Assembly (NCBI RefSeq): GCF_011045075.1
Contig: NZ_JAAKZZ010000006.1
Span: 1-43,465 of the forward strand
Length of the DNA stretch: 43,465 nt
Source of the DNA: Streptomyces boncukensis
Lineage (GTDB): Bacteria > Actinomycetota > Actinomycetes > Streptomycetales > Streptomycetaceae
Direction of reading: 5' to 3'
Of this stretch, positions 14,150 through 28,286 are shown in pieces; within the stretch, counting starts at the first letter, position 1, and every line of letters begins with the position of its first letter. Position numbers and translations under genes: made by a program. The notes beneath the pieces are model-generated. The model was not told the DNA's origin, ran no database searches, and saw only the letters and a list, made by a program, of their open reading frames with translations.

Positions 14150-14165
14150 CCTCCGCCGAGTGAGG

Positions 14166-14205
14166 GCGCCCCGCGTCGCGGAGTGCCCGTGCCCCTCCGG
14201 GGCGC
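14166..14205 (+). promoter_or_regulatory. Intercistronic hairpin between ngcE and ngcF
   Basis: GCGCCCCG (14166-14173) pairs with CGGGGCGC (14198-14205) right after the ngcE stop. Such stems often stabilise or partly terminate the mRNA so that the binding protein is made in excess over the permeases. The function here is inferred from position. Confidence 0.5.
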
Positions 14206-14253
14206 GGAGCGGGGTGGACAAGTCGGGTGGGTCGACCAGGGAATCGGAGCAGT

Positions 14254-15303
14254 GTGAAGACAGCGAAACCGGCGGAGTCACCGCCGTCGACGACAGCGCG
14301 GGCGGCAGCGGGGGGCACGCGGGCACCCAGCGGTCTGCTCCTCCTTTCCGTACTGCTGCCGCCCCGGTTCACTCCGGAGCGGGTCAAGCGGGACCGCCGC
14401 TACCGCACGCTCGACAAGTACCGCTTCATCGCCGGCTTTCTGGCGCTGCCGCTCGCGTTCTACGCGGTGTTCGTCATCTCCCCGTTCCTCCAGGCGATCT
14501 ACTACTCGTTCACCGACTGGGACGGCGGCGCCACCGCCGATTTCGTCGGCCTCGACAACTACCGGAAGCTGTGGAACGACGACCGGTTCTGGGACTCCGC
14601 CAAGACCAGCGTGTCCCTGCTGGTCGCCGCACCGGTGATCACCCTGTCGCTGGGCATCTTCTTCGCCTACATGATCACCGCGGGCGGGCGGCACCGCAGG
14701 GGGCAGGCCGTCGCGGGCGTCGTCGGCTCCTCCTTCTACAAGGTCGTCTACTTCTTCCCGCAGGTGCTCTCCATCGCGATCGTCGCGGTGGTCTGGATGC
14801 GGGTGTTCTCCACCCGCAGCGGACTGCTGAACGGGTCACTCGGCGCCGTGGGGCTCGACGGCCTGGAGAAGCCGTGGCTGGGCGGGGACTACAACCTCGC
14901 GCTGTTCGCCACGCTGACCGTGCTGTGCTGGTCGTTCGTCGGCTTCTACGTGGTGCTGTTCTCGGCGGCGATGGGGGCCATCCCCCGGGACCTGTACGAG
15001 GCGGCGCTGCTGGACGGCGCCGGGCGGGCCACGACCTTCTTCAAGGTCACCCTGCCGCTGATCTGGGACACCGTCCGCACCGGCTGGATCTATATGGGCA
15101 TCCAGGCGCTGGACGCCTTCGCCATCGTCCTGGTGATGGTGCCGGACCACGCCCTGAAGGTCACCCCGGTCTTCCTCTACCAGCGGTTCCGCGAGGGGCA
15201 GTTCGGCTACGCCACCGCCATCGGCGTCGTCCTCCTCGTCTTCAGCGTGGTGTTCTCCCTGATCATCATGCGGGTCGGGAACCGCGACCGGATCGAATAC
15301 TGA
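14254..15303 (+). CDS. ngcF: NgcF-like sugar ABC transporter permease
   Basis: First membrane subunit of the ngc-type importer (349 aa from the chosen start). Six hydrophobic segments follow a proline/alanine-rich cytoplasmic N-terminus. Family blocks include RFIAGFLALPLAFYAVFVIS, TDWDGG, FYKVVYFFPQVLSIAIVAVV and the cytoplasmic EAA loop YEAALLDGAGRATTFFKVTL, which contacts the ATPase. The end NRDRIEY is typical of NgcF. GTG 14254 (VKTAKPAES) is preferred because CGGAGCA lies just before it; an in-frame GTG at 14227 would add nine residues without a good site. It works with the NgcE and NgcG homologues; ATP hydrolysis is expected from the shared ATPase MsiK, which is not in the window. Confidence 0.82.
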   Translation: MKTAKPAESPPSTTARAAAGGTRAPSGLLLLSVLLPPRFTPERVKRDRRYRTLDKYRFIAGFLALPLAFYAVFVISPFLQAIYYSFTDWDGGATADFVGLDNYRKLWNDDRFWDSAKTSVSLLVAAPVITLSLGIFFAYMITAGGRHRRGQAVAGVVGSSFYKVVYFFPQVLSIAIVAVVWMRVFSTRSGLLNGSLGAVGLDGLEKPWLGGDYNLALFATLTVLCWSFVGFYVVLFSAAMGAIPRDLYEAALLDGAGRATTFFKVTLPLIWDTVRTGWIYMGIQALDAFAIVLVMVPDHALKVTPVFLYQRFREGQFGYATAIGVVLLVFSVVFSLIIMRVGNRDRIEY

Positions 15304-15323
15304 CGACGGGGGAGCACAGCTTC

Positions 15324-16223
15324 ATGACGACAGCGCCGACTGAGCGGACCGAGCGGAGCGAGCGGACCGGGCGGGGCCGGCGGGCCCGGGAGACGGAGGG
15401 GGCCGCCCTCAACGTCTTCTCCCACGCCTTCCTCGTGGTGTGGGTGGTGCTGGCGGCCGGGCCGCTGGTGTGGGTGGCCGTCACCGCGTTCCGGTCCTCG
15501 GGGGACATTCTCAGCGACCCGCTGGGCCTGCCCTCCACCCTGCACTGGGAGAACTTCAGCAACGCCTGGACCGAGGCGAAGATCGGCCGCTACGCACTCA
15601 ACTCGCTGGTCATCCTCGCGGGTTCGCTCACCGGCACCATGCTGCTGGGCTCCATGGCCGCGTATGTGATCGCCCGCTTCACCTTCCCCGGCAACCGCTT
15701 CATCTTCCTGCTGTTCGCCGGGGGGATGATGTTCCCGGTGATCCTGGCGCTGGTGCCGCTGTTCACCATCATGGACAACCTCAGCCTGCTGGACACCCGG
15801 CACGGGCTGATGATCGCGTATATCGCGTACTCGCTGCCCTTCACCACGTTCTTCCTGACCTCGTTCTTCCGCACGCTGCCCACCGGGGTGCAGGAGGCGG
15901 CCATGGTCGACGGGGCCTCGCACACCCGCACCTTCTTCCAGATCATGCTGCCGATGGCCAAGCCCGGCCTGGTGAGCATCGGGATCTTCAACTTCCTGGG
16001 CCAGTGGAACCAGTATCTGCTGCCGCTGCTGCTGAACAACGAGAGCGAGGACAACTACGTCCTCCCGCAGGGGCTCGCCTCGCTGGCCGTCTCGCAGGGC
16101 TACCGCGGCGACTGGGGCGCGCTGTTCGCGGGACTGACGATCGCCATGCTGCCGGTGCTGGTGGTGTACGCCGTCTTCCAGCGCCAGGTGCAGGCCGGAC
16201 TGACCGCGGGCGCCCTGAAGTAG
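15324..16223 (+). CDS. ngcG: NgcG-like sugar ABC transporter permease
   Basis: Second membrane subunit of the ngc-type importer (299 aa), 20 bp after ngcF and in another frame. The ATG follows GGGGGAGCACAGCTTC. A charged N-terminus with repeated Thr-Glu-Arg-Ser units (TERTERSERTGRGRR) precedes six membrane segments. The EAA loop is QEAAMVDGASHTRTFFQIML, and the end QAGLTAGALK is characteristic of CUT1 MalG-type permeases. The long open frame begins far upstream at 14160, but only the part from 15324 resembles a permease. After its stop come 160 bp containing the DasR-like site of the next operon. Confidence 0.85.
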   Translation: MTTAPTERTERSERTGRGRRARETEGAALNVFSHAFLVVWVVLAAGPLVWVAVTAFRSSGDILSDPLGLPSTLHWENFSNAWTEAKIGRYALNSLVILAGSLTGTMLLGSMAAYVIARFTFPGNRFIFLLFAGGMMFPVILALVPLFTIMDNLSLLDTRHGLMIAYIAYSLPFTTFFLTSFFRTLPTGVQEAAMVDGASHTRTFFQIMLPMAKPGLVSIGIFNFLGQWNQYLLPLLLNNESEDNYVLPQGLASLAVSQGYRGDWGALFAGLTIAMLPVLVVYAVFQRQVQAGLTAGALK

Positions 16224-16284: not shown

Positions 16285-16383
16285 TGTGCCGGAAACGGCT
16301 GTGAGTAGGGTCGGCGCCACAGCGCAACTCACAGATCTTCCCCCCGCGGGCAAGTCGACACCGATGTCGAAGGGTTGAGCAAG

Positions 16384-17655
16384 ATGAACAGAAGAGCAGT
16401 TGTGACCGGTGCGGCCGCGCTCGCCATGGCCCTGGGGCTGACCGGGCTCACCGGGTGCGGCAGCAGTGACGACGAGGGCTCCGACGGCAAGACCACCCTC
16501 AAGCTGGTGGCCGCCGACTACGGGGACAAGGCGTCCAACGCCTCCAAGATCTACTGGCGGGACGTCGTCAAGGACTTCCAGAAGAAGAACCCGGACATCA
16601 AGGTCGATGTCCAGGTCATCAACTGGAACGAGATCGACAAGCAGGTCAAGACGATGATCCAGAGCGGCAACGTTCCGGACCTGCTGCAGACCGGGGGCTA
16701 CGCCGACAAGGTCGCCGACGACCTCCTCTACAAGGCCGACGAGGTCACCTCGGACAAGACCCGCGCCAACCTCATCCCGTCCTTCGCGAAGGCGGGCGAG
16801 GTCGACGGCACGCAGTACGGCATCCCCTGGGTCTCCTCCACCCGCGTGCTCTTCTACAACAAGAAGATCCTCAAGGAGGCGGGCGTCAAGGCGCCCCCGA
16901 AGACCTGGGACGAACTCGCCGCCGCGGCGAAGAAGATCAAGGACAAGAAGGCCGCCGACACCCCCTACGCGCTGCCCCTCGGCCCCGAGGAGACCCAGGG
17001 CGAGTCGATGATCTGGGAACTGGGCAACGGCGGCGGCTACACCGACAGCGGCGGTACGTACCAGCTGGACAGCGCCAAGAACGTCGAGACCTTCAAGTGG
17101 CTCCAGGACAACCTGGTCAAGCCCGGCCTCACCTACAGCAACCCGGCCACCACCGACCGGAAGACGGCGTTCGCCGACTTCGCCGCGGGCAAGGCCGGCA
17201 TGCTCAACGGCCATCCGAGCCTCATCCAGATGGCCAAGAGCGGCAAGGTCGACTACGGCGTCACCACCATCCCCGGCAAGGACGGGCCGCTGAAGTCCAC
17301 GCTGGGCGTGGCCGACTGGATGATGGCCTTCAAGGACCCCGGCCACCAGGCGGAGGTGAAGAAGTTCCTCGACTTCACCTACGCCAACAAGATGCTGAAG
17401 TTCGACGAGATGTACAACTTCATGCCGGTCACCCAGGACGTCCGCAAGGAGATGGAGTCCAGCGGTGAGCACAAGGACCTGGAGCCCTTCTTCGCCGAGC
17501 TGGACAACGCGAAGTTCTACCCGCTGGGCGACCCGGCCTGGGACGTGATCTCGGCCGAGATGAAGAAGTCCGGCGGCAAGGCGGCGCAGGAGGACCCGAA
17601 GAAGGTGCTCGGCGACCTGCAGAAGAAGGCGGAGGACGCGGTGGCGAACAAGTGA
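16384..17655 (+). CDS. Sugar ABC transporter solute-binding lipoprotein (second system)
   Basis: Extracellular CUT1-type sugar-binding lipoprotein (423 aa). Signal peptide MNRRAVVTGAAALAMALGLT ends in the lipobox LTGC (Cys25). The fold is type 1 solute-binding, with TLKLVAADYGDKASN, VDVQVINWNEIDKQV, YGIPWVSSTRVLFYNKKIL and PKTWDELAAAAKKIK, then ATTDRKTAFADFAAGKAGML in the second lobe. ATG 16384 is preferred because GAAGGG lies about 10 nt before it; a TTG three codons upstream would sit on top of that site. The sequence is clearly different from the NgcE homologue 3.7 kb upstream. The DasR-like site 100 bp upstream hints at an amino-sugar or chitin-related ligand. By position next to rok7B7 it could be the counterpart of the S. 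coelicolor SCO6005 transporter, so orthology between the two systems needs a tree. Confidence 0.85.
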   Translation: MNRRAVVTGAAALAMALGLTGLTGCGSSDDEGSDGKTTLKLVAADYGDKASNASKIYWRDVVKDFQKKNPDIKVDVQVINWNEIDKQVKTMIQSGNVPDLLQTGGYADKVADDLLYKADEVTSDKTRANLIPSFAKAGEVDGTQYGIPWVSSTRVLFYNKKILKEAGVKAPPKTWDELAAAAKKIKDKKAADTPYALPLGPEETQGESMIWELGNGGGYTDSGGTYQLDSAKNVETFKWLQDNLVKPGLTYSNPATTDRKTAFADFAAGKAGMLNGHPSLIQMAKSGKVDYGVTTIPGKDGPLKSTLGVADWMMAFKDPGHQAEVKKFLDFTYANKMLKFDEMYNFMPVTQDVRKEMESSGEHKDLEPFFAELDNAKFYPLGDPAWDVISAEMKKSGGKAAQEDPKKVLGDLQKKAEDAVANK

Positions 17656-17691
17656 CCGCTGTTCGTTCCCGCTGAACCGCAAGGAGACCCC

Positions 17692-18645
17692 GTGTCCGTA
17701 AAGGCCCCGTCGTCCCCGGCCGAGAGCCGGGGGCGGGGTGGGTCCGGCGGCAGGCGAGTGCGGCACCGTCCGCGCGGCGGCCTCGCCCGGCTGGGCCCGC
17801 TTCCCTGGATCGCCCCGGTGATCCTGCTGATCCTCGCCGTCGTCGTCTACCCGATCGTCGAACTGGTCCGCACCTCGTTCCTGAACATCAGCATCGCGGG
17901 CAAGGTCCGCGGCTCGGCGGGCACCGACAAGTTCAAGAAGCTCTTCGAGGAGACCGACTTCGGGCACGTCCTGCTGTGGACCGTGCTGTGGACCGTGGTG
18001 GTCGTGTGCGTCACCATGGTGCTCTCGCTGGGCCTCGCCCAGCTGTTCAACCAGCGGTTTCCCGGCCGCCGGGTGGCCCGCTGGGCGCTGATCGCGCCCT
18101 GGGCGGCATCCGTGCTGATGACCGCCATCGGCTTCAAGTGGATGCTCAACCAGACCGCCGGGGTGCTCAACACCCTGCTGATCGACCTCGGCCTCATCGA
18201 CAAGTCCAAGGACTGGCTGGGCGAGCCGGGCACCGCCTGGCCCTGGATGATGTTCGTCGCGGTCTTCGTCTCGCTGCCGTTCACCACGTACACCCTGCTC
18301 GCCGGGTTGCAGACCATTTCGCAGGACGTGTACGAGGCCGCCCGGATCGACGGCGCCGGCCCCTGGCAGACGTACTGGGGCATCACCCTGCCGCTGCTGC
18401 GCCCCGCCTTCCTCGTCGGCGTGGTGATCAACCTGATCAACGTCTTCAACTCGTTCCCGATCATCTGGGCGATGACGCAGGGCGGACCGGGCAGCGACAC
18501 CGCCACCAGCACGGTGTTCATGTACAAGCTCAAGGAGACGGACATCGCCGAGTCCGCGGCGATGTCGGTGGTGAACTTCGCGATGGTCGTGGTGCTGGTG
18601 CTGATCTTCCTCAAGGTCAGCCGGTGGAACGAGGAGGACGCATGA
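17692..18645 (+). CDS. Sugar ABC transporter permease, MalF-type (second system)
   Basis: First permease of the second sugar importer (317 aa), starting at GTG behind a strong AAGGAG site 36 bp after the binding-protein gene. An Arg-rich cytoplasmic N-terminus precedes six membrane spans (PWIAPVILLILAVVVYPIVE is the first). The EAA loop is YEAARIDGAGPWQTYWGITL, and NVFNSFPIIWAMTQGGPGSD is the conserved MalF-type region after span 5. The stop overlaps the next start as ATGA, showing translational coupling. Confidence 0.9.
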   Translation: MSVKAPSSPAESRGRGGSGGRRVRHRPRGGLARLGPLPWIAPVILLILAVVVYPIVELVRTSFLNISIAGKVRGSAGTDKFKKLFEETDFGHVLLWTVLWTVVVVCVTMVLSLGLAQLFNQRFPGRRVARWALIAPWAASVLMTAIGFKWMLNQTAGVLNTLLIDLGLIDKSKDWLGEPGTAWPWMMFVAVFVSLPFTTYTLLAGLQTISQDVYEAARIDGAGPWQTYWGITLPLLRPAFLVGVVINLINVFNSFPIIWAMTQGGPGSDTATSTVFMYKLKETDIAESAAMSVVNFAMVVVLVLIFLKVSRWNEEDA

Positions 18646-19490
18646 CGGCCACCGCACCCGCGGCCAGGAAGCGGAGCTTCCGCCCGCGGACGCTCGTGAT
18701 CACGGCGGTCGCCTGGCTGCTGGCCGCGCTCTTCCTCGCGCCGTACCTGGAGATGGTGCTCACCGCGCTGCGCCCGGCCGACGAGCTGCGCGACCGCTCC
18801 TACTTCCCGGACAAGCTGGAGTGGTCCAACCTCGTCGACGTGTGGAAGGAGTCCTCGCTCGGGGACAACCTCCAGGTGACGCTGCTGGTCGCGGGCGGCG
18901 CCACGGTGCTGGTGCTGCTCGTCTCGCTGCCCGCCGCGTACTACACGGCGCGGGTGCGCTACCGGGGACGCAAGTGGTTCCTGCTGCTGGTGCTGGTCAC
19001 CCAGATGTTCCAGCCGACGGCCCTGGTGGTCGGCCTCTACCGGCAGTTCTACCAGCTGGACATGTTGAACTCGGTGTGGACGCTGATCCTGTGCAACGCG
19101 GCGTTCAACCTCGCGTTCGCGGTGTGGATCCTCTCGGCCTACATCAGCTCGATCCCGGTGGAGCTGGAGGAGGCCGCCATGGTCGACGGCACCAGCCGGT
19201 TCGGGGCGATGATCCGGGTGACGCTGCCGCTGGCGCTGCCGGGGGTGGTGACGGCCGTGATCTTCACGTTCATCACCTCCTGGAACGAGTTCATCATGGG
19301 GCTGACGCTGTCCACCGAGCCGGACAAGCAGCCGCTGACGGTGGGGATCAACAACTTCATCGGCAACTACACGGTGCAGTGGAACTACCTGTTCGCGGCC
19401 TCGGTGGTCGCGATCCTGCCGGTGATCGTGCTCTTCGCGTTCATCGAGCGGCATGTGGTCTCCGGGCTGACCGCGGGCTCCGTGAAGTAG
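18642..19490 (+). CDS. Sugar ABC transporter permease, MalG-type (second system)
   Basis: Second permease of the importer (282 aa), coupled to the previous gene by a 4-nt ATGA overlap. Six predicted spans begin at LVITAVAWLLAALFLAPYLE. The EAA loop LEEAAMVDGTSRFGAMIRVT and the C-terminus HVVSGLTAGSVK are typical of MalG-like subunits. Its open frame extends upstream to 17976, but that part is antisense or out-of-frame noise. No ATPase follows. It ends at a hairpin shared with the convergent ThDP-enzyme gene. Confidence 0.9.
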   Translation: MTATAPAARKRSFRPRTLVITAVAWLLAALFLAPYLEMVLTALRPADELRDRSYFPDKLEWSNLVDVWKESSLGDNLQVTLLVAGGATVLVLLVSLPAAYYTARVRYRGRKWFLLLVLVTQMFQPTALVVGLYRQFYQLDMLNSVWTLILCNAAFNLAFAVWILSAYISSIPVELEEAAMVDGTSRFGAMIRVTLPLALPGVVTAVIFTFITSWNEFIMGLTLSTEPDKQPLTVGINNFIGNYTVQWNYLFAASVVAILPVIVLFAFIERHVVSGLTAGSVK

Positions 19491-19510
19491 CCCGGGGCCC
19501 TTGCGGGGCA

Positions 19511-19541
19511 CCCCCGGCTCAGTCGCGGACCGAGCCGGGGG
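19511..19541. terminator. Bidirectional hairpin between sugar transporter and ThDP-enzyme genes
   Basis: CCCCCGGCTC (19511-19520) and GAGCCGGGGG (19532-19541) form a perfect 10-bp stem with an 11-nt loop between convergent operons. The stem covers the last codons of the ThDP-enzyme gene. Confidence 0.75.
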
Positions 19542-21222
19542 CGCCGCCCAGCAGCAGGGGCCATACGCTCGGCATCTCCCCGACCGGCACCTCCACCAGC
19601 GAAGGGCCCTGCTCCGTGAGCGCCTCCTTGAGCGCGCCGGTCAGCTCGTCCGGCGTCCGGGCGCGCACCCCGGGCACCCCGAACGACTCCGCGAGGCGGA
19701 CGAAGTCCGGGCTGGCCAGCTCGCTGCCGAGGAAGCGCCCGCCGAACTCGTCGGCCTGGATCTGCCGCACGTTCCCGTAGGCGCTGTCGTTGAAGACGAC
19801 CGCGGCCACCCCGAGCCCGTACTTGCGCGCGGTGGCCAGCTCCTGCAGATTCCAGCAGAAGCCGCCGTCCCCGTTGAGGGAGACGACGGCGCGGTCCGGG
19901 TGGCCGGCCTTCACGCCCAGCGCCGTGGGATAGCCGTAGCCGAGGGTGCCCTGGTAGCCGGGCGTGAGGAAGGTGCCGGGGGTGTGCACGGGGTAGCCGA
20001 CCCCCGCGAGGTAGCCGACCTGGGTCAGCTCGTTCACCAGGTACCCGTCGTCGGGGACCGCCGCGCGCAGCGCCTGTACGTACGACCACTGCGGCTCGAC
20101 GCCGCGCAGCAGCCCCGCGCACTCCGCGCGCACCTCGGACAGCTCCCCGGGCGGCCAGCCCCCGAGCTCTCGGCTTCGCTCAAGCAGGGGGTCCCCCCGC
20201 TGCGGCGGCGGCGCCCCGGACAGCGCGCCGCGCAGTCCCGCCAGCGCGGTGCGCGCGTCGGCGCACAGCGCGAGGTCGGCCCGGCGGGGCGGCCCCAGGT
20301 CCGAGGGGTCCGCGTTGACCAGCGCGACGGTCGCGCCCGGCGCGGTGGGCAGGGCCGTGCCGCGCGGCGACACGAAGCGGCTGCCCACCGCCAGCACCGC
20401 GTCCGCCGCGGGCAGCAGCCGCGGCGCGGCCAGGGTGGTGAAGGCGAGCGGATGGCGGGCCGGGACAGCGCCGCCCGCGTTCCGGCTCACCACCACCGGA
20501 GCGGACAGCTCCTCGGCGAGGGCCGTCAGTTCGGCGGCGGCTCGCGCGGCCAGCACGCCGCCTCCCGCGTACAGCAGCGGACGGCGGGCCGTACGCAGCA
20601 CCTCGGCGATCTCCGCCAGGGTGCGGGGATCCGCCGGGTCCGCCGCCTCCGCTTCCGTCCACGGGTCCGGCGCGGCCTCGGGAGGCGGGCCCTCCAGCCG
20701 CGCGGTCAGCACGTCCGCCGGGATCGTCAGGGCCGCCGGGCGCGGCCGCCCGGAGCGGGCGCGGGTAAGCGCCTCCCGTACGAGCCCGGGGATCCGCTCC
20801 GGGCGCTCGGCCCGCGCCGACCAGCCGGTGACCGAGCCGAGCGCCGCGTCCTGGTCCGGCAGTTCGTGCAGCATGCCCAGACCGCGCCCGGACAGCGGTG
20901 CGGGGATGTCGGCCGCGACGCACAGCATCGGCGTCGAGCAGGCGTAGCCGGTGGCCACCGCGGGCAGCGCGTTGAGGACGCCGGGCCCGGGGACCACCAG
21001 GCAGACGCCGGGCCGCCCGGTGGTCCGGGTGTAGCCCTCCGCCATATGCGCGGCGCCCTGCTCGTGGCGGGCCACGATGTACTCGATCGGGCCCCCGGCG
21101 GCCCGGGAGCGGGCCAGCGCGTCGAGTACGTGGTCGAGCTGGACGCCCGGCACGCCGAAGACATGGCGTACGCCCTCCCGTTCCAGCTGCTGGACCAGGG
21201 CTTCCGCGCCGGTCTGGGTCAT
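19519..21222 (-). CDS. ThDP-dependent enzyme (acetolactate synthase/benzoylformate decarboxylase-like)
   Basis: Last gene of the five-gene cassette (567 aa). It has the three-domain layout of ThDP enzymes of the POX/ALS/BFD group. The N-terminal Pyr domain carries the cofactor Glu in YIVARHEQGAAHMAEGYTR, the middle domain follows with RRPLLYAGGGVLAARAAAEL, and the C-terminal PP domain has the metal/ThDP motif GDGGFCWNLQELATARKYGL ending in VVFND. The start overlaps the antiporter stop as ATGA. Next to an alpha-hydroxy-acid oxidase, a decarboxylase or carboligase acting on the resulting 2-oxo acid is the natural inference, but the substrate-pocket residues do not identify it. Between the middle and PP domains, about residues 342-355 (GDPLLERSRELGG) are encoded by a copy of a Streptomyces intergenic palindromic repeat, read in frame. 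A housekeeping acetolactate synthase is less likely because no regulatory subunit is present. Confidence 0.88.
   Translation of the reverse strand: MTQTGAEALVQQLEREGVRHVFGVPGVQLDHVLDALARSRAAGGPIEYIVARHEQGAAHMAEGYTRTTGRPGVCLVVPGPGVLNALPAVATGYACSTPMLCVAADIPAPLSGRGLGMLHELPDQDAALGSVTGWSARAERPERIPGLVREALTRARSGRPRPAALTIPADVLTARLEGPPPEAAPDPWTEAEAADPADPRTLAEIAEVLRTARRPLLYAGGGVLAARAAAELTALAEELSAPVVVSRNAGGAVPARHPLAFTTLAAPRLLPAADAVLAVGSRFVSPRGTALPTAPGATVALVNADPSDLGPPRRADLALCADARTALAGLRGALSGAPPPQRGDPLLERSRELGGWPPGELSEVRAECAGLLRGVEPQWSYVQALRAAVPDDGYLVNELTQVGYLAGVGYPVHTPGTFLTPGYQGTLGYGYPTALGVKAGHPDRAVVSLNGDGGFCWNLQELATARKYGLGVAAVVFNDSAYGNVRQIQADEFGGRFLGSELASPDFVRLAESFGVPGVRARTPDELTGALKEALTEQGPSLVEVPVGEMPSVWPLLLGGAPGSVRD
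20159..20198. repeat. Palindromic intergenic-type repeat inserted in frame in a coding sequence
   Basis: This stretch, with core AGCTCTCGGCTTCGCTC flanked by C-runs and G-runs, is the same element as the inverted copy at about 39101-39141. The core is identical and the flanks differ at a few positions. Here it lies inside the ThDP-enzyme gene without breaking the frame and specifies about 14 residues between domains. Confidence 0.8.
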
Positions 21223-22568
21223 TGCGGGACCTCCGCGGTCGTGTCGTCGGCGCCGCTTGCGGACGCCGGGGGCGTGCGCCTGGGCGTGCGGCGGGGGGTG
21301 CGCTGCCGGGTGCGGGCGTGCTGGTGGGGCCCGCTCCCGCCGGCCGCCGCTCTCTCCCTGCGGTCCAGCCAGCTCAGAACCGGCACGGTCATGACCGTCG
21401 TCACCAGGGCGACGAGGACCAGCACGGTGAACAGCGCCTCGCTGACGATCCCGGCCTCCAGGCCGACGTTGAGCGCGATGAGCTGCATCAGTCCGCGCGC
21501 GTTCATCAGCGCGCCCACCCGCGCCGCGACGCCGCCGGGCTCGCCGCGCCAGCGCGCCGCCAGCCAGCAGCCGCCGAACTTCCCCGCGACGGCCAGCACC
21601 ACGGCGCCCGCGCCGAACGCGAGCACGGCGGGGTCGCCGAAGACGCCGAACCGGGTGTTGAGGCCGGAGTAGGTGAAGAACATCGGTACGAGGAGCACCT
21701 GGGTGACGGGCACGGTGCTGCGCACCACCCGCTCGGACGCGTCGCACGCCGGCATGGCCAGCCCGACGGCGAACGCGCCGAAGACCGCGTACAGCCCGAC
21801 CTCGTCGGTGAACCAGGCGGCGCCCAGCAGCACCACGAAGGCGCCCAGCAGCCGGGTGTCCTCCCGCAGCCCCGGCCGGGTCATCAGCGCGCCGAGCAGC
21901 CGCCGGCCCAGCAGCAGCATCACGGCGGTGAACAGCAGCAGCCCGCCCGCCGCCTTCACGATCAGCTCCGCCTCGCCCGCGGCCACGCTGAGGACCCCGG
22001 CCAGCAGCAGCCAGGCGGTCACGTCGTCGACGGCTCCCGAGGCCAGCGCCAGCGTGCCGAACCGGGAGCCGGCCAGGCCCCGTTCGGTGATCAGCCGGGC
22101 GAGCATCGGGAACGCCGTGACCGTCAGGGTGACGCCGACGAAGGCCGCCGTCACCCCGGGCGAGACCCCGTCGACGAAGACGCCGACATGGCCGTGGACG
22201 GCGAGGGTCAGCCCCGCGCCCAGCAGCAGCGGCAGCACGATCCCGGCCGCGGAGACCGTCGCGGCGGTACCGGCGAGCCCGCGCCCGGCGTGCGCCCGGA
22301 ACTCGTACCCCGCGGCGAACATCAGCGCCACCAGGCCGATCTGGCCGACGACGTACAGCACGGGCCGCAGCTCGGACGGGAAGAGGGCGTCGGAGAGTCC
22401 GGGCGCGAGCAGTCCGAACAGCGAGGGCCCGAGCAGCACTCCGGCCAGCATCTCCCCGACGACGGCGGGCTGGCCGATCCGGGCCGCGGCCAGGGAGACC
22501 AGGCGGCACGTCAGCAGGATCACGGCGGCCGCGGCGAAGAAGACGGGCGCGAGCTCGGCCGGGGTCAC
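21219..22568 (-). CDS. Cation/proton antiporter, CPA2 (Kef/NapA) type
   Basis: A 449-aa membrane protein with about 12 hydrophobic segments and a charged, Arg/Thr-rich C-terminal tail (RTPRRTPRRTP). CPA2 features are visible: RIGQPAVVGEMLAGVLLGPS in the first two spans, QIGLVALMFAAGYEF, LTVTAFPMLARLITERGLAG, and the ion-binding span GAVDDVTAWLLLAG with the two adjacent aspartates expected of electrogenic members. No TrkA-N/KTN domain is fused. GTG start and upstream stop overlap as GTGA, and its own stop overlaps the ThDP gene as ATGA, so it belongs to the cassette. It could maintain pH or cation balance, or export a charged product; similar antiporters occur in antibiotic clusters as efflux proteins. 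That role is inference. Confidence 0.88.
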   Translation of the reverse strand: MTPAELAPVFFAAAAVILLTCRLVSLAAARIGQPAVVGEMLAGVLLGPSLFGLLAPGLSDALFPSELRPVLYVVGQIGLVALMFAAGYEFRAHAGRGLAGTAATVSAAGIVLPLLLGAGLTLAVHGHVGVFVDGVSPGVTAAFVGVTLTVTAFPMLARLITERGLAGSRFGTLALASGAVDDVTAWLLLAGVLSVAAGEAELIVKAAGGLLLFTAVMLLLGRRLLGALMTRPGLREDTRLLGAFVVLLGAAWFTDEVGLYAVFGAFAVGLAMPACDASERVVRSTVPVTQVLLVPMFFTYSGLNTRFGVFGDPAVLAFGAGAVVLAVAGKFGGCWLAARWRGEPGGVAARVGALMNARGLMQLIALNVGLEAGIVSEALFTVLVLVALVTTVMTVPVLSWLDRRERAAAGGSGPHQHARTRQRTPRRTPRRTPPASASGADDTTAEVPQ

Positions 22569-23956
22569 TCCCCCTTCCCCTCACCGGCGCACGTCCCCTC
22601 ACCGGCGAAGTGGTTGCGGCACAGGCCCTGCCGCTTGGCGTCCCAGACCATATAGCTGCCGAGCACCAGCTGGGTGAGGCTGCGCGGGATGGCGGCCCAG
22701 CGGTCGCGGGTGCGCATGGCGGCGAGCCGGACGCGGGGGCGGGGCGCCGGACTGCCGTGCGGGGTGAGGAGGCAGGGGCCCCTGCTGGGCAGGGAACGGG
22801 TGTGGTCGACGGTGGAGTCCAGCCGGTAGCGCCGCAGCACCTCCTCGGCGGCGACCCGCATGGTGAGCACCGCGAACCCCCGGGCCGGGCAGGGGCGGTT
22901 GGCGGGGACCCCGAACGGAATGGCGGTGCCGGGCCGGGTGTCGGGGCGCAGCCAGCGGTCCGGGTCGAACCGCTCGGGCGCGACCGTCCCCGAGCGCTGG
23001 TACTCGGGGTAGTGGAACAGGAGGACCGAGCCGGCCGGGATGGGCGGCCCGCCCCTGCGCGGCACCGCGCCGGTGGTGATCCGGTGGGCCACCCCGAACA
23101 GCGGGAAGTGCTGGAGGGTTTCGTCGATCACCCGGTCCAGGTAGTCGGCGGGCTGCCGGCCGGCGCGCAGCCGCCGCTGTACGGGCTGGTGGGTGGCGAG
23201 AGCGAGCAGCAGATGGGCCATCGCCTCGGACATCTGGACCACGGCGGTGTTGAAGAACGTGCCCTGGAGGTAGTACGCCTGCTCGTGGGGGGTGAGCGCG
23301 GCGGGCAGCGGGACGGGCGGCGGCGCTGCGGCGAGCCGCTCGCGCAGATACCGGGTGAGCCGGTGGCGCCGGTCCATATGCCGCAGACTGGTGCACTTCA
23401 GAGCGCTGACCACGTCGTCCGCGTTGCCGACGATCAGGTCCCGCACCGGCCGGGGGCACGGCTCGCGGAAGACGACCTCGTAGTACGCCTCCGCCCACAC
23501 CGGCATCATCAGGTCGCGCAGCCGCACCCGGTGGGTGCGCCCGGCGCTGCCCGCTTCCAGCTCGTCCAGCACGTTGCGGGTGGCGCGGCCCACCAGCTCC
23601 GCCCACTCGGCGCGGGAAGGCCCGGCCAGGATCCGCCGGGTGGCGCGGGCCACGTCGTCGTAGCGGGGCCCCGGCTCCAGGTGCTCCTGGTGCACCTCGG
23701 GGCCGGGCGAGAGCCAGTACCAGAACAGGTCGGACAGCGCGGCGCCCCGGCTGCGGCCGTTCGCCGCCGGGTGTCCGTAGACCTCCCGGAACTGAGCCGG
23801 GGGCACCTCGGGTCCTGGCGCGGAGAGCGCTTCCTCGCCGTTGACCCGCTCGAAGATGCCCTCGCGCAGCGCGATCACCCCGCGCGGCAGCCAGCGCGGC
23901 AGGCTGGCCACCCCCGCCGCGGCCCCGGCGGCGGCCATCCACCGGGCGCCCCTCAT
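22565..23956 (-). CDS. Divergent cytochrome P450 lacking the ExxR arginine
   Basis: A 463-aa P450-like protein, start fixed by an ATGA overlap with the upstream oxidase. The heme loop is FGVPANRPCPARG, with the presumed thiolate Cys356 one residue later than in FxxGxRxCxG and no Gly at Cys+2. The K-helix is DETLQHFPLFGVAHR, with Glu279 but Gln282 where ExxR needs Arg. The I-helix region GTFFNTAVVQMSEAMAHLL lacks the usual AGxxT acid-alcohol pair. The meander-type stretch PERFDPDRWLRPDTRPGT is normal and supports the family call. An N-terminal hydrophobic stretch (MAAAGAAAGVASLPRWLP) could be a membrane anchor or cryptic signal. About 107 residues follow the Cys, somewhat long. Such changes suggest peroxygenase-like or non-oxygenase chemistry, or a heme protein with another role. 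No ferredoxin gene is adjacent; the flavoprotein upstream is not an obvious redox partner. Confidence 0.8.
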   Translation of the reverse strand: MRGARWMAAAGAAAGVASLPRWLPRGVIALREGIFERVNGEEALSAPGPEVPPAQFREVYGHPAANGRSRGAALSDLFWYWLSPGPEVHQEHLEPGPRYDDVARATRRILAGPSRAEWAELVGRATRNVLDELEAGSAGRTHRVRLRDLMMPVWAEAYYEVVFREPCPRPVRDLIVGNADDVVSALKCTSLRHMDRRHRLTRYLRERLAAAPPPVPLPAALTPHEQAYYLQGTFFNTAVVQMSEAMAHLLLALATHQPVQRRLRAGRQPADYLDRVIDETLQHFPLFGVAHRITTGAVPRRGGPPIPAGSVLLFHYPEYQRSGTVAPERFDPDRWLRPDTRPGTAIPFGVPANRPCPARGFAVLTMRVAAEEVLRRYRLDSTVDHTRSLPSRGPCLLTPHGSPAPRPRVRLAAMRTRDRWAAIPRSLTQLVLGSYMVWDAKRQGLCRNHFAGEGTCAGEGKGE

Positions 23957-25167
23957 ACCGGGCCCCCGTCCCAGCTCCCGGGGACCCGGCCCGGCGGTGC
24001 CGGAGGGCGGACCAGCTCGGGGCCCACGTCCCGCACCCCGGTGGCGCCGCACAGCGCGAGCGCGTCGTCCACCTCGTCGCGCAGCAGCTCCAGCAGCCGG
24101 CCTACGCCCGCCTCGCCGCCGTCGGCCAGCGCCCACATGACCGGGCGGCCGATGCCCACGGCGGAGGCGCCGAGCGCCAGCGCCTTGACGACATCGGTGC
24201 CCCGCCGCACCCCGCCGTCCAGGATCACCGGGATCCGGCCCCCGACGGCGGCTGCGATCTCCGGCAGCAGCTCCAGGGTCGCCGGGACCGTGTCCAGTTG
24301 CCGGCCGCCGTGGTTGGACAGCAGCAGCCCGTCCACGCCGTGCCGTACCGCCAGCCGGGCGTCCTCGGGGTGCAGCACGCCCTTCAGCAGGACCGGCAGG
24401 TCGGTGATCCGGCGCAGCCAGTCCACCTGCGTCCAGGAGATCTCCGGGGACATCACGATCTGCCGCACGTGCCCGCTCTCGCCGTCCCGCAGATCCACCA
24501 GGTTCTCGCAGCGCAGTCCGGGCGGCAGGTCGTGGAAGCCGTTGCGCCGGTTCCGCTCGTGGGTGCCGTGCACCGGCGAGTCCACGGTGACCACGAGCGC
24601 CTGGCACCCGGCGTCGGCGGCCCGCCGCACCAGGGCCTCGGTGATCTCCAGATCGGGCTGGATGTAGAGCTGGAACCACAGCGCCGGCTGCTCGCCGTCC
24701 GGCGCCGCCTTGCGGGCCGCCTCGGCGACCTCGCCGATGGCGACCGTGGAGGCCATGCTCGCGATCATGAGGGCTCCGGCGGACGCGGCGGCCCGCGCGG
24801 CGGCCACCTCGCCCTCCGGGACGAGAAGCCGGTGGAACGCGGTGGGCGAGAGCAGCACCGGCATCCGGGCCCTGGCGCCGGGCAGTTCGACGCCGAGCTC
24901 CCGCTCGGCGCTGCCGCGCAGCACCCGGGGCAGCAGCCGCAGCCGCCGGAACGCCGCCTCGTTGGCCCGTACGGTGATCTCGTCGTGCGCCCCGCCCGCG
25001 ATGAAGTCGGCGTGCACCGGGTCGAGGGTGGCGCGGGCCGCGGCCTCGAAGTCCCGGACGGCCACCCGCCGCGCGCCCGGAACGCCGCTCGCGGAACGGT
25101 CCGCGGTGTCGCCCGCCGTGTCGCCCGAGGTATCGCCCGCTATGTCGCTCGCGGTGTCGTCGTGCAC
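23953..25167 (-). CDS. FMN-dependent alpha-hydroxy-acid oxidase/dehydrogenase
   Basis: A TIM-barrel flavoenzyme (404 aa) of the glycolate oxidase, lactate oxidase and mandelate dehydrogenase family, oxidising an L-2-hydroxy acid to a 2-oxo acid. Conserved residues are visible: FQLYIQPD (active-site Tyr), TVDSPVHGTHERNRRNGF (Asp and Arg), LPVLLKGVLHPEDA (FMN-binding Lys), SNHGGRQLD (catalytic His and substrate Arg) and ILDGGVRRGTDVVKAL (phosphate site). The substrate-binding Tyr24 of spinach glycolate oxidase aligns with Phe55 (HADFIAGGAHDE), a non-standard choice. The first 28 residues are a low-complexity Asp-Thr-Ala-Gly repeat, unlike family members. GTG starts 5 bp past the flavoprotein stop, and its stop overlaps the P450 start. 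In the cassette it probably supplies a 2-oxo acid to the ThDP enzyme. Confidence 0.9.
   Translation of the reverse strand: MHDDTASDIAGDTSGDTAGDTADRSASGVPGARRVAVRDFEAAARATLDPVHADFIAGGAHDEITVRANEAAFRRLRLLPRVLRGSAERELGVELPGARARMPVLLSPTAFHRLLVPEGEVAAARAAASAGALMIASMASTVAIGEVAEAARKAAPDGEQPALWFQLYIQPDLEITEALVRRAADAGCQALVVTVDSPVHGTHERNRRNGFHDLPPGLRCENLVDLRDGESGHVRQIVMSPEISWTQVDWLRRITDLPVLLKGVLHPEDARLAVRHGVDGLLLSNHGGRQLDTVPATLELLPEIAAAVGGRIPVILDGGVRRGTDVVKALALGASAVGIGRPVMWALADGGEAGVGRLLELLRDEVDDALALCGATGVRDVGPELVRPPAPPGRVPGSWDGGPV
25106..25162. repeat. 12-bp imperfect tandem repeat coding Asp-Thr-Ala-Gly units
   Basis: Four to five head-to-tail 12-mers related to GTGTCGCCCGCC, read on the minus strand as tetrapeptides DTAS, DIAG, DTSG, DTAG and DTAD at the very N-terminus of the hydroxy-acid oxidase. 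Unit length is a multiple of three, so copy changes keep the frame. Confidence 0.8.
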
Positions 25168-25171
25168 GGCG

Positions 25172-26770
25172 TCACCGTCCGGCGTCGGCGGTCCGGCGGC
25201 CGAGCTGCCCGGCGAAGAACCGCACCAGCGGCGCCCGGTGCGCCTCGGGGTGGTCCCACTCGTTCTCCAGGTTCTCCGCCATATGGTGGGTGCCGAGCAG
25301 CCGGCCCGCGCGGTGGTGGCGGATGACCGGGTGGAGGTAGGCGGCGTCGACGGCCTCGTCGGCCGCGTTCTGCGCGGTGCGCCGCACCGTGATGTCGAAC
25401 GGGTCGACCTTGTCGTGGTCCGGCCCGTACTCCAGGGTGACGGTGAAGTAGCCGCCCCGCTCCGCGACCGGGCTCTCGTGCGCGTAGTCGACGGGCATCT
25501 CCTCCAGATAGCGGCACGGCTCCCCGGACTCCGGCACGGTCAGCACATCGCCGAGCACGCCGAACTGCTGCCACAGCGCCGAGGTGCGGTTGACCCGCGC
25601 CACCACGGCGTCCGCGAGCGCCTCCGGCTCCGGCTCCAGGGTGCGGTGCGGCCACGGTTCGCCGTGGTGGCGCTCGCCGAGGATGCGGCTCAGCGCGCGG
25701 ACGGCGTACCGGAAGCCGTGGATGAAGCCGCCGGTGGACTTCTTGAAGTCGCGCTGCTGCATCAGCGTTCCGGCGAAGTACAGCCCCGGCACGTTCACCG
25801 ACTCGTAGGCGGAGGTGAGCGCGGCGAACCGGTCGTTGATCACCAGCTCGGGGCGGCACTCCGGGGCGAACGGCGAGGGGTCGAAGCGGAATCCGGTGCA
25901 GGTGATGACGCGGTCGTAGCGCAGCTCCTTCACGGTCTCGTCGGCCCGGGAGAAGCTGAAGCGGACCCGGTAGCGGCCGTCGCCGTCCTTCTCGACGCCC
26001 AGCACCTGGCCGTCCAGCAGCGCGTTCTGCGACTTGAGCTGGTAGGTGTCCAGGAAGTTGTTGTTCACGGCGCGCAGATGGCCCACGTAGTGGGAGTTCC
26101 AGGCCAGCCGCACCGACCCGGGGCCGGCCACGTGGATGACGGCGGCGGTCTCGACGAGGTTGTCGGCGGTCTCCAGCCCGGAGTTGCCCTTGCCGAGGAT
26201 CAGCACGCGCTGGTCGGTGAAGTCCTCGGGCGCCACGGAGGTCTCCGCGTAGTCCTCGGCCAGCTCGATGCCGGGGATGGCGGGGATGTGCGGGAGGGTC
26301 AGCCCGGTGGCCATCACCAGGCGCTCCGCGCGGTGTTCGGCGCCGTGCTGGTCGGTGACGCGGAAGCCGCCCCCCTCGGTGTCGCGGGCGATGCGGGCCG
26401 CGCGGGTGCCGTAGGCGATGTCGAGGCCGTGGTGCTCGGCGAAGTCGGCGAGATAGCGCAAGAGGTCGTCGGCGTGCGGGAAGTAGCGGGCGCTGTAGCG
26501 GGTGAAGAGCAGCCGGGGGTCGGGGGACAGCAGCGAGTTCCAGTCCATCCGGAGGTTGAGCTCCGGATCGTCGGTGCCGTTGTGCACCTTGTTGATGGAG
26601 ATCAGCTTGCGGTGCCGGGGGAAGGTACGGAAGAACGTACCGGGCGCGTCGCCGCTCTCCAGGATCCGGTACCGGTGCCCTGCCGCCTGCAGGAGCTGTC
26701 CCGTCTGGAGGCCCGCGGGACCGCCGCCGATCACCAGGTAGTCCAGGGGAGCGTGGGGGGAGCCGTGCAT
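25172..26770 (-). CDS. FOXRED2-like NAD(P)-binding FAD oxidoreductase / flavin monooxygenase
   Basis: First gene of the cassette (532 aa). ATG 26770 is chosen because GGAAGGAG lies 6 nt upstream; a longer open frame has no site. An FAD Rossmann motif (VIGGGPAGLQ, residues 13-22) and a second NAD(P) motif (ILGKGNSGLETADN) give the two-dinucleotide fold of class B flavin monooxygenases. Around them is a pattern shared with the eukaryotic ER protein FOXRED2/ERFAD: PRHRKLISINKVHNGTDDPE, LNLRMDWNSLLSPDPRLLFT, HYVGHLRAVNNNFLDTYQLK, KSTGGFIHGFRYAVRALSR, HHGEPWPHRTLEP and AYLHPVIRHHRAGRLLG. The FMO fingerprint FxGxxxHxxx(Y/F) is not seen, so N- or S-oxygenation should not be assumed. It may be an oxidoreductase acting on a pathway intermediate or on thiols. 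An operator-like palindrome lies 21 bp upstream. Confidence 0.85.
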   Translation of the reverse strand: MHGSPHAPLDYLVIGGGPAGLQTGQLLQAAGHRYRILESGDAPGTFFRTFPRHRKLISINKVHNGTDDPELNLRMDWNSLLSPDPRLLFTRYSARYFPHADDLLRYLADFAEHHGLDIAYGTRAARIARDTEGGGFRVTDQHGAEHRAERLVMATGLTLPHIPAIPGIELAEDYAETSVAPEDFTDQRVLILGKGNSGLETADNLVETAAVIHVAGPGSVRLAWNSHYVGHLRAVNNNFLDTYQLKSQNALLDGQVLGVEKDGDGRYRVRFSFSRADETVKELRYDRVITCTGFRFDPSPFAPECRPELVINDRFAALTSAYESVNVPGLYFAGTLMQQRDFKKSTGGFIHGFRYAVRALSRILGERHHGEPWPHRTLEPEPEALADAVVARVNRTSALWQQFGVLGDVLTVPESGEPCRYLEEMPVDYAHESPVAERGGYFTVTLEYGPDHDKVDPFDITVRRTAQNAADEAVDAAYLHPVIRHHRAGRLLGTHHMAENLENEWDHPEAHRAPLVRFFAGQLGRRTADAGR

Positions 26771-27104
26771 GGTGCTCTCCTTCCGAAGGGGACGTACACA
26801 TGTCATGTACGTACCGGGTCCGCACCGTGCTCAAGAGGTAGTGCTTGAAATCTGAATCAGCACGGTAGGAACAGCAACCTCGTTCGACAACGTCGATATC
26901 CCGCCATCACGCGGAGCGCCGAGCGCCCCTGGTTCACGGAGGGGAAACCCATGGCTCGCCAGGAGCTCACGCTCCGTACAATGCACACATCTGAGCGCCC
27001 CGGCTGCCCACTCGTGCTCAAGGACTTGACGGGGAGAACCAGTGGGGATCTGCTTAGAGTTCACATGTTGGAGGCAAGACCGCACGGGCTGGAGTGGAAC
27101 AGTG
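26771..27104. other. Divergent promoter region, redox cassette and rok7B7
   Basis: 334 bp without a credible gene. It contains the ACGTACA-N7-TGTACGT palindrome near the flavoprotein start and two weaker dyads: GTGCT-N13-AGCAC (26841-26863) and TCGAC-AAC-GTCGA (26884-26896). The rok7B7 ribosome site GGAG (27091-27094) closes it. A minus-strand open frame covering 26831-27679 is antisense to rok7B7 and is not called. Confidence 0.6.
26792..26812. promoter_or_regulatory. Operator-like palindrome before the redox cassette
   Basis: ACGTACA (26792-26798) and TGTACGT (26806-26812) are perfect arms around a 7-bp spacer. An inner dyad ACATG-A-CATGT is visible on the minus strand. Size and placement, 21 bp before the flavoprotein ATG, suit a TetR- or GntR-type repressor. 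No regulator gene is inside the cassette. Confidence 0.65.
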
Positions 27105-28286
27105 GTGGAGACTCCGGGGTCGCAGTCCTCGCTGCACCGGGCCAACCTCGAACGGGTCGTCAGGGCCGTACGGATGGCCGGCTCGCTGACCCAGGCGGAG
27201 ATCGCCCGGTCCACCGGGCTGTCGGCCGCCACCGTCTCCAACATCGTCCGGGAACTGAAGGAGAGCGGAACCGTCGAGGTGACGCCCACCTCGTCCGGCG
27301 GGCGCCGGGCCCGCGCCGTCTCGCTCAGCGCCGACGCCGGGATCGTCGTGGGCATCGACTTCGGCCACTCCCACCTGCGCGTCGCCGTCGGCAACCTCGC
27401 GCACAAGGTGCTCACCGAGGACGCCGAGCCGATCGACGTGGACGCCTCCTCGGCCCAGGGCTTCGACCGGGCCGAGCAGCTGGTCCAGCGGCTGATCGCG
27501 CGCAGCGCGGTGAGCCCCTCCAAGGTCATCGGCGTCGGCCTCGGCGTCCCCGGGCCCATCGACATCGGCACCGGGGTACTGGGCTCCACCGCCATCCTCC
27601 CCGGCTGGGCGGGCACCAACCCGCGGGACGAGATGGCGCGCCGGCTCGGCGTCCCGGTGCACGTGGACAACGACGCCAACCTCGGCGCGCTCGGCGAGCA
27701 GGTCTGGGGCGCCGGGCAGGGCGCGGCCGACCTGGCCTACATCAAGGTCGCCAGCGGAGTCGGCGCCGGGCTGGTGATCAACGGCCGGATCTACCGCGGC
27801 CCCGGCGGCACGGCCGGAGAGATCGGCCACATCACGCTGGACGAGTCGGGCCCGGTCTGCCGCTGCGGCAACCGGGGCTGCCTGGAGACCTTCACCGCCG
27901 CGCGGTACGTCCTTCCGCTGCTGCACTCCAGCCACGGCCCCGGCCTGACCATGGCGCGGATGGTCGAGCTGGCGGAGGAGGGCGACCCGGGCTGCCGCCG
28001 GGTGATCGCCGACATCGGCCGGCACATCGGCAGCGGCGTCGCCAGCCTGTGCAACCTGCTCAACCCCTCCCGGGTGGTGCTGGGCGGCCCGCTGGCCGAG
28101 GCGGGCGACCTGGCGCTGGACCCGGTGCGGGACTCCGTCACCCGGTATGCGATCCCGAGCGCGGCGCGGCAGCTGCGGGTGGAGCCGGGGGAGCTGGGGA
28201 GCCGCGCCGAGGTGCTGGGGGCGCTGGCGCTGGTGCTGAACGAGATGGGCGACGCCATGCTCCTGGACGCCGCCGGCCCCACCTGA
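27105..28286 (+). CDS. rok7B7: ROK-family transcriptional regulator Rok7B7
   Basis: DNA-binding ROK protein (393 aa). The winged helix-turn-helix LTQAEIARSTGLSAATVSNI near residues 28-47 precedes the ROK sugar-kinase-like domain: GIDFGHSHLRVAVGNL (phosphate-1 like), VDNDANLGALGEQVWGAG, and the zinc motif CRCGNRGCLETF. The first residues (VETPGSQSSLHRANLERVVR) match the usual N-terminus of Rok7B7 proteins, so GTG 27105 is chosen, though GTG 27102 is also possible behind GGAG. In S. coelicolor Rok7B7 (SCO6008) is known to influence xylose transport, carbon control and antibiotic production, and lies next to xylFGH as here. Its inducer is not evident from sequence. The xylF promoter dyad at 28336 is a candidate target. 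Confidence 0.92.
   Translation: METPGSQSSLHRANLERVVRAVRMAGSLTQAEIARSTGLSAATVSNIVRELKESGTVEVTPTSSGGRRARAVSLSADAGIVVGIDFGHSHLRVAVGNLAHKVLTEDAEPIDVDASSAQGFDRAEQLVQRLIARSAVSPSKVIGVGLGVPGPIDIGTGVLGSTAILPGWAGTNPRDEMARRLGVPVHVDNDANLGALGEQVWGAGQGAADLAYIKVASGVGAGLVINGRIYRGPGGTAGEIGHITLDESGPVCRCGNRGCLETFTAARYVLPLLHSSHGPGLTMARMVELAEEGDPGCRRVIADIGRHIGSGVASLCNLLNPSRVVLGGPLAEAGDLALDPVRDSVTRYAIPSAARQLRVEPGELGSRAEVLGALALVLNEMGDAMLLDAAGPT

Follow-up and report, generated by a model that had tools for sequence, protein, structure and literature searches.

The stretch of DNA analysed here (hereafter the window) is contig C808 of Streptomyces boncukensis, 43,465 nucleotides long, taken from a source genome of 8.27 Mb in 1141 contigs. 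Its positions 19519-26770 hold a cassette of five minus-strand genes encoding, in this order, a flavin adenine dinucleotide (FAD) flavoprotein, a flavin mononucleotide (FMN) enzyme, a cytochrome P450, a CPA2 antiporter and a thiamine diphosphate (ThDP) enzyme, with the FAD gene first:

25172..26770, minus strand: FAD/NADPH flavoprotein (Pyr_redox_3), first cassette gene, 532 amino acids; PF13738, 148 bits
23953..25167, minus strand: FMN-dependent enzyme of the 2-hydroxy-acid oxidase family, 404 amino acids; PF01070, 405 bits
22565..23956, minus strand: divergent cytochrome P450, 463 amino acids; PF00067, 43 bits
21219..22568, minus strand: CPA2-type cation/proton antiporter, 449 amino acids; PF00999, 162 bits
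19519..21222, minus strand: ThDP enzyme, optional cassette member, 567 amino acids; three TPP_enzyme Pfam domains

As read from the sequence, the FAD and FMN genes are separated by a 4-bp gap, and the following junctions are ATGA, GTGA and ATGA overlaps; coordinates and junctions agree with an initial annotation of this DNA, and the five genes are likely to form one transcript. Each of the five proteins has a Pfam match, in keeping with the families first named for them, and curated domains together with conserved relatives for all five rule out chance open reading frames. No polyketide synthase (PKS) or nonribosomal peptide synthetase (NRPS) gene lies within the cassette, an early claim which is upheld by the gene families present.

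Relatives of the cassette were sought in 84,980 species genomes of the GTDB with the P450 as query; 210 were confirmed, which are places with P450 relatives and not proven cores, and the best 80 loci were read. Called genes were grouped into families by single linkage, and the 81 loci mentioned below are these 80 plus the window. The FMN enzyme is present at 78 of the 80 loci, the FAD protein at 77 and the CPA2 antiporter at 67, tblastn having missed the FMN enzyme in L034 and the FAD protein in L060, which meets a contig end, and in L079. Other recurrent families are a response regulator (51), an adenosine monophosphate ligase (AMP-ligase; 50), a histidine kinase (48), a lyase of the 4-methylideneimidazole-5-one (MIO) type (22), a sulfotransferase (15), the ThDP enzyme (10) and a DUF6282 protein with an aldehyde dehydrogenase (5). 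FAD, FMN, P450 and CPA2 genes lie contiguously on one strand at 64 of the 81 loci, and at 57 of those 64 the FMN and P450 genes overlap or touch. The core protein distances are correlated over the 64 loci in all six pairs (Mantel r 0.76-0.96, none of 999 permutations reaching the observed value in any pair), although these figures are raised in part by shared species history. At least FAD-FMN-P450 is found across Streptomyces, Micromonospora, Actinomadura, Nonomuraea, Saccharothrix, Nocardia and one Novosphingobium. The latter, the proteobacterium Novosphingobium rosa (L078), carries the three genes at 54-64% identity, and no other organism named for the 80 loci lies outside the actinobacteria.

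The same grouping is apparent within narrower samples. Among 199 genomes of the window's genus, the P450 (counted at E <= 1e-140) occurs in 25, while 28 more genomes with merely weak general P450 matches were left out; the FAD protein (E <= 1e-100) occurs in 28, namely all 25 P450 genomes plus G006, G174 and G193. Five of 296 phylum genomes contain the FAD protein at E <= 1e-140, and the three of these from other genera all have FAD-FMN-P450; in one, the Micromonospora-type cluster is complete. What is conserved is the unit FAD-FMN-P450-exporter, on which the set of five genes represents a local variation. Thus, where the initial annotation took five genes as the unit, its four-gene part stands and the membership of the ThDP gene does not; likewise, the joint search which it proposed finds the five-gene set rarely together, which is untrue of the four-gene core.

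The ThDP enzyme belongs to the decarboxylase/acetohydroxyacid synthase superfamily by its three TPP_enzyme domains and by Glu54 and the GDG motif at 451-453, conserved in 11 of 11 copies. Among the 25 models shown it passes only NF006122/PRK08266 (621 bits, cut-off 571), which bears the name 'hypothetical protein'. Its gene was found in 10 of the 80 P450 loci, some of them cut by contig ends, and in 4 of 24 same-genus P450 loci with flanks read (G146 being unread, and the contig of G032 ending behind CPA2). In the core-gene tree, every ThDP locus belongs to a single clade of 23 rows, of which 11, the window included, are positive, and the window is the outermost row of the clade (clade support 100, inner split 86); a single gain at the clade base followed by several losses would be the simplest history. 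A 40-base repeat at 20159-20198 lies within the ThDP reading frame, has 37 further matches in the genome, and lengthens a linker whose extent varies between copies (around residues 342-355), residues 344-347 being absent from all ten other copies.

The initial annotation had proposed a general logic running from hydroxy acid to 2-oxo acid and on to the ThDP enzyme, which cannot hold, since the ThDP gene occurs in 10 of 80 loci and in one clade. As a rival explanation, the five genes would make up a pathway of their own, in which the FMN enzyme oxidises a 2-hydroxy acid, the ThDP enzyme decarboxylates or ligates the 2-oxo acid, and two further oxidations and export complete the route. The coupling of all five genes in the window, the intact catalytic residues of the FMN enzyme, the intact Glu and GDG motif of the ThDP enzyme and the confinement of ThDP loci to a single clade are all compatible with it, but 70 of the 80 loci yielded no ThDP gene, even if some are cut by contig ends, and we regard this pathway as improbable, also in view of the partner genes described below.

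In Micromonosporaceae, Pseudonocardiaceae and part of Streptomyces, the core is accompanied by the MIO lyase, the AMP-ligase, usually a second FAD paralogue (19 of 22 MIO-bearing loci), and an OmpR-type regulator with its kinase, a set which we call module A. The window's own genome carries such genes on other contigs. Its MIO gene at C225:2404-3924, 71% identical to the one of Micromonospora chalcea, adjoins a response regulator and kinase of the cluster-locus families, and its AMP-ligase gene at C160:15377-16876, at a contig end, encodes a protein 68% like that of Phytohabitans. The end of C160 and the start of C225 share an exact 79-base overlap, as is the case for neighbours in an assembly graph, and their module A genes may therefore belong to one locus. 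Past the MIO gene on C225 (L186, 4123-13526) there is no match to the cluster families, so that the C225 part of module A looks confined to the response regulator, the kinase and the lyase.

The MIO proteins carry an ASG triad in 23 of 23 cases, and also in 23 of 23 a His-Leu pair aligned with the H-L of 2o6y; in such enzymes the triad forms the MIO group and the pair governs selectivity. The best solved match, 2o6y (E 1.5e-68), is named a putative histidine ammonia-lyase in the PDB, and we take it to be the tyrosine ammonia-lyase of R. sphaeroides. The homologue in L088 is below the cut-off of every NCBIfam lyase/mutase model listed. By these motifs, the C225 enzyme appears to be of the tyrosine type, the tests being compatible with a lyase and with an aminomutase. 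Of the 50 AMP-ligases of the loci, 45 are at least 45% identical to that of the window's genome, and that of L035 is only 32% identical.

Within the genus sample, both enzymes follow the P450. The AMP-ligase (E <= 1e-100) occurs in 21 of the 199 genomes and the MIO clade (at least 81% identity to the own copy) in 14, and all of these are among the 25 P450 genomes; the MIO match in G185 covers two thirds. Weaker MIO matches (56-64%) are found inside the P450 set in G036 and G048, and outside it in G062 and G137. The hypergeometric figures for this confinement of lyase and ligase, 4e-15 and 1e-24, ignore ancestry and linkage. The lyase lies on the P450 contig in nine genomes (G029, G032, G115, G117, G130, G132, G135, G189 and G191). 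In G000, G022 and G185, lyase and ligase are on contigs other than that of the P450 and yet co-occur with it; lyase/ligase genes are also off the P450 contig in G194 and G146, where contig ends fall within or close to the cluster, so that assembly breaks are likely. The presence of module A elsewhere in the window's genome, and its confinement to P450 genomes in the genus sample, argue further against a self-contained five-gene pathway.

We lean, without strong conviction, towards the reading that FAD-FMN-P450-CPA2 serves oxidative tailoring and export, as module B of a two-module actinobacterial specialised-metabolite pathway, which is probably p-coumarate-derived. The gene families, their order and conservation, their co-occurrence and the split between contigs are observed, and we infer the product, every chemical step, the transporter role and the regulation. 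In this scheme, module A would supply and activate the precursor: a tyrosine-type MIO ammonia-lyase would convert tyrosine to p-coumarate, the AMP-ligase would activate it, with the second FAD copy taking part where present, and control would lie with the OmpR-type two-component system, which would activate the pathway. In module B, the flavoprotein and the P450 would then oxygenate the activated acid, the FMN enzyme would oxidise a 2-hydroxy acid or related alcohol, and the antiporter, or an exporter of the major facilitator superfamily (MFS) in a few loci, would export the product. The ThDP enzyme, as a lineage-specific add-on, would act on the 2-oxo acid so formed, by decarboxylation or ligation. 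Both modules form one cluster in Micromonosporaceae, Pseudonocardiaceae and part of Streptomyces, and are split in the window's genome, with module B at an insertion and the module A genes on C160 and C225.

Several observations weigh against this two-module pathway. The P450 genomes G007, G068, G146 and G158 have no AMP-ligase at E <= 1e-100, and 11 of the 25 P450 genomes are without the MIO clade, which may mean that module A is not obligatory, that another enzyme stands in, or that the assemblies have gaps. The MIO lyase is present in just 22 of the 80 loci, and other lineages have the sulfotransferase (15) or DUF6282 with the aldehyde dehydrogenase (5) instead, so the substrates may differ. 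A second FAD protein was not found in the window's genome. In addition, keeping the best 80 of 210 loci favours close relatives and under-represents distant ones, the single-linkage families include some general members, and the co-occurrence figures take no account of common ancestry or, in most genomes, of whether the genes are physically linked.

The FMN enzyme has the marks of the 2-hydroxy-acid oxidase/dehydrogenase family, namely PF01070 together with H286, R289 and D196 (77 of 77 each) and Y168 (71 of 77), which we take to be the catalytic positions. At the position of glycolate oxidase Tyr24 the family has Phe (42 of 77) or Tyr (35 of 77), and Ala139, an Ala in 71 of 77, aligns with glycolate oxidase Trp108. 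The residues at both positions make a 2-hydroxy acid larger than glycolate a plausible substrate. The top PDB matches, 7f22 and 7f20, are each a lactate oxidase chain some 730 residues long, in which the match occurs twice. Elsewhere in the window's genome, a protein of 643 amino acids on contig C167 (L187, 4803-6734) combines an FMN family match of 48% with what by eye is a thioesterase-like start, and adjoins a large polyketide-synthase-like protein; it is an odd fusion, unrelated to the cassette.

The P450 is assigned by PF00067 (42.9 bits, cut-off 22.8) and by its cysteine heme ligand, and, as the match is restricted to residues 232-384, the label 'divergent' that the initial annotation gave it is fair. 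The heme-ligand cysteine C356 is conserved in 80 of 80 relatives, and the I-helix pair N236-T237 nearly so (N 77, T 80 of 80), Asn standing where the acid-alcohol pair of P450s usually has the acid. The ExxR motif is usual in P450s and not universal; the window has ExxQ, and the position is R in 57, Q in 18 (window included), L in 2, W in 2 and H in 1 of the 80, the window's clade being mostly without the arginine. A structural model (pLDDT 87, a model confidence score) matches solved P450s with Z 28.8 and a root-mean-square deviation (rmsd) of 2.8 over 342 residues; many rows are tied, CYP152 peroxygenases among them, and the match indicates merely 'a P450'. Few solved P450s cover its helices before residue 25 and after 403. 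The N-terminus is hydrophobic (mean hydropathy at least 1.6) in 60 of 80 relatives, with a value of 0.98 in the window's copy. The sole ferredoxin-like family seen beside the P450 occurs in 3 of the 80 loci. In the S. violaceusniger group (L013, L016, L023, L155, L156 and L158), the FAD gene is preceded by a further gene that by eye is P450-like and by a small ferredoxin-like one, mostly along with a short-chain dehydrogenase, and an AMP-ligase follows on the opposite strand; the extra genes are possibly a set of redox partners. If it were no ordinary monooxygenase, the P450 might be fed by hydrogen peroxide from the coupled FMN oxidase, act as an isomerase, or take electrons from the flavoprotein. 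That the whole is a widespread, undescribed actinobacterial route from tyrosine through p-coumarate to an exported small molecule, made without PKS or NRPS and with such a P450, seems unlikely.

The P450 also bears on a catabolic interpretation, an alpha-oxidation of an aromatic or alkyl acid by activation, alpha-hydroxylation, formation and decarboxylation of a 2-oxo acid, and aldehyde oxidation. Genes of the appropriate kinds do occur, with aldehyde dehydrogenase and DUF6282 in 5, the ThDP enzyme in 10 and the AMP-ligase family in 50 of the 80 loci, but those for the aldehyde dehydrogenase and the ThDP enzyme are minority genes. The CYP152 peroxygenases among the fold matches also speak for this route, yet they are tied with many other P450s. 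In CYP152 peroxygenases, an I-helix Arg binds the substrate carboxylate; the cassette family instead has N-T, and no such Arg is present in residues 232-246 of the window's P450. None of the 15 PDB sequence matches is named CYP152 or peroxygenase, 8z9s being named just 'Cytochrome P450'. We consider this catabolic route very unlikely.

The FAD protein, first put forward as FOXRED2-like, may resemble FOXRED2; it was modelled with AlphaFold2 (pLDDT 82). Its model matches folds of thioredoxin reductases (TrxR) and flavin monooxygenases (FMO), with YpdA at Z 25.2 and rmsd 3.4 over 317 residues, and hardly any coverage past about residue 426. FAD and NADPH motifs are present, the N-terminal GxGxxG in 94 of 96 homologues and GxGNSxxE in 91 of 96. 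CxxC marks disulfide reductases of the TrxR type, and FxGxxxH marks class B flavin monooxygenases (FMO and Baeyer-Villiger monooxygenases); despite the YpdA/TrxR-like fold, the CxxC pair is found in 0 of 96 homologues, and the FxGxxxH fingerprint likewise in 0 of 96.

The antiporter exceeds the PF00999 cut-off (162 bits against 26) and remains below that of TIGR00932 (114 bits against 238); its Asp-Asp motif D181-D182 is conserved in 66 of 66. In L046, L056, L058, L170, L172 and L174, its place is taken by a gene family of the MFS type, assigned by a Pfam run on the L191 member, which fits export better than ion balance, and export is hence the likelier role of the transporter. FAD and transporter genes also occur without FMN or P450 genes of the cassette kind, in G193 with CPA2 and in G174 with the MFS type. 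At the former locus (L190, 9572-12281), the FAD homologue adjoins a CPA2 protein 70% like that of L037, amid what by eye are genes of a nonribosomal-peptide-type cluster.

Such FAD-transporter pairs could speak for a detoxification or stress module, in which flavoprotein and exporter, under two-component control, oxidise and expel toxic aromatic acids or electrophiles, and P450 and FMN enzyme widen the range. Regulatory genes are indeed common at the loci, with response regulators no more than six genes from the P450 in 47 of 80 and kinases in 48 of 80. However, an ammonia-lyase and an AMP-ligase fit an export-only module poorly, and the antiporter has no Pfam domain beyond PF00999, such as the regulatory domain which Kef systems possess. 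A detoxification role is thus unlikely in our view, and the two-module biosynthetic pathway remains the reading that we prefer.

The position of the cassette in the genome is defined by the following features:

12752..16223, plus strand: ABC transporter in the ngcEFG position, the usual rok7B7 neighbour; adjoins ROK in G031 and G043; Pfam matches for the binding protein and first permease
16402..19490, plus strand: second ABC sugar transporter, made up of a binding protein and two permeases and situated between the cassette and the operon in the ngcEFG position
19489..27020, no strand assigned: inserted segment, with no homology at the site in G087 (blastn boundaries)
27042..28286, plus strand: ROK regulator in the rok7B7 position, divergent from the cassette; PF00480, 202 bits

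In the second transporter, Pfam assigns SBP_bac to 16375-17655 and BPD_transp_1 to 17692-18645. In S. coelicolor, rok7B7 lies immediately downstream of ngcEFG, and this synteny is described as conserved in streptomycetes (PMC6167110). A ROK protein of the window's kind was found in 101 of 101 genus-sample genomes (E <= 1e-100), and flanks were counted at 30 loci from 30 of these 101, 29 of them outside the window's genome. A permease match lies within 1.5 kb of ROK in 24 of the 29, these permeases being merely 27-34% identical to the window permease at 18642-19490. In G031 and G043, blastn homology skips from window positions 16223-16225 to 27014-27016, so that the counterpart of 12752-16223 adjoins ROK, and the second transporter is absent at the site. 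In G087, whose ROK protein is the most similar among 100 other genomes (88%), the three genes of the second transporter are present at 81-91%, homology ends at 19488 and restarts at 27021, and a transposase gene (Pfam) occupies the gap corresponding to the cassette. These boundaries indicate that the window carries two additions, the second transporter (16402-19490) and then the cassette. The cassette adds 7.5 kb at a site where the relative G087 carries a transposase, and the proposal that it had been inserted between a sugar transporter and rok7B7 was right in substance, given the closed site in relatives and the published synteny (PMC6167110). The G+C content of 19489-27014 is 74.6%, above the 67.3% of the 10 kb on its left and the 71.3% on its right; no convincing repeats or target-site duplications were found at the insertion edges within 19400-27200.

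Two further ideas were tried and rejected. The palindrome GTACATGACATGTGTAC, at 26794-26810 and thus upstream of the FAD gene, was considered as a conserved operator, but is unmatched elsewhere at fewer than five mismatches among 75 upstream regions, the window's own included. Plasmid carriage was discarded as well: one of 72,556 plasmid records matched (E <= 1e-60), which is a chromosome-sized Nonomuraea record of 11.85 Mb whose matched stretch carries no annotation.

The four-gene core is apparently a common yet undescribed module, with likely partner genes elsewhere in the window's genome. Judging from P450 relatives at 210 GTDB places and in 25 of 199 genomes of the genus, the pathway would be common, and cluster finders based on backbone genes or linkage could miss it, because the core has no PKS or NRPS backbone and the genes are split between contigs in some genomes. 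If modules A and B form one pathway, a deletion in either should remove the same metabolite. The initial view that no pathway with the five-gene set has been described agrees with a full-text literature search, which found no description of the set and had most subscription papers outside its reach.

Among known systems, the mycofactocin cluster resembles the cassette in that its MftD, like the cassette FMN enzyme, is an LldD-family FMN enzyme. A corresponding reading of the cassette as a ribosomally synthesised and post-translationally modified peptide system (LldD plus P450) was rejected, as the FMN protein, at 227 bits, stays below the 470.85 bits that the MftD model TIGR03966 requires, and the coupled core leaves scant space for a precursor gene; small open reading frames, precursor-peptide and radical SAM (S-adenosylmethionine) genes were not searched for. 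The 4-hydroxymandelate oxidase Hmo (PDB 5zzp and others) belongs to the same FMN family, with catalytic residues conserved (E 2e-71), but the FMN enzyme is closer to human HAO1 (2e-87) and to glycolate oxidase 1gox (7e-81). Among solved proteins, the L088 AMP-ligase is matched best in sequence by 6sq8/6h1b (E 3.8e-61), listed in the PDB as fatty acid CoA ligase and probably the amide bond synthetase McbA; this likeness concerns the sequence of the L088 homologue and is compatible with an amide, a CoA ester or an adenylate as product.

Actinomycete clusters for avenalumic and p-coumaric acid employ diazotases of the ANL superfamily, and thus share with the cassette system an AMP-ligase-family enzyme in a hydroxycinnamate-type pathway, but, according to a review, they reach p-coumaric acid via diazotisation with nitrite-forming enzymes, which were not searched for here (PMC11705231). 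In the naringenin biosynthesis of S. clavuligerus, tal is unlinked from ncs-ncyP, and deletion and complementation have shown that the three genes are needed (PMC4640377, PMC8773403). That system requires chalcone synthase, which is not among the 12 families present in at least 10 of the 81 loci (the rest of the genome was not searched for one), whereas the cassette system has additional FAD, FMN and antiporter genes. In both cases, a tyrosine ammonia-lyase locus feeds, or would feed, a separate group of genes which includes a P450, and the unlinked tal of S. clavuligerus is the nearest printed idea found to the two-module pathway proposed here.

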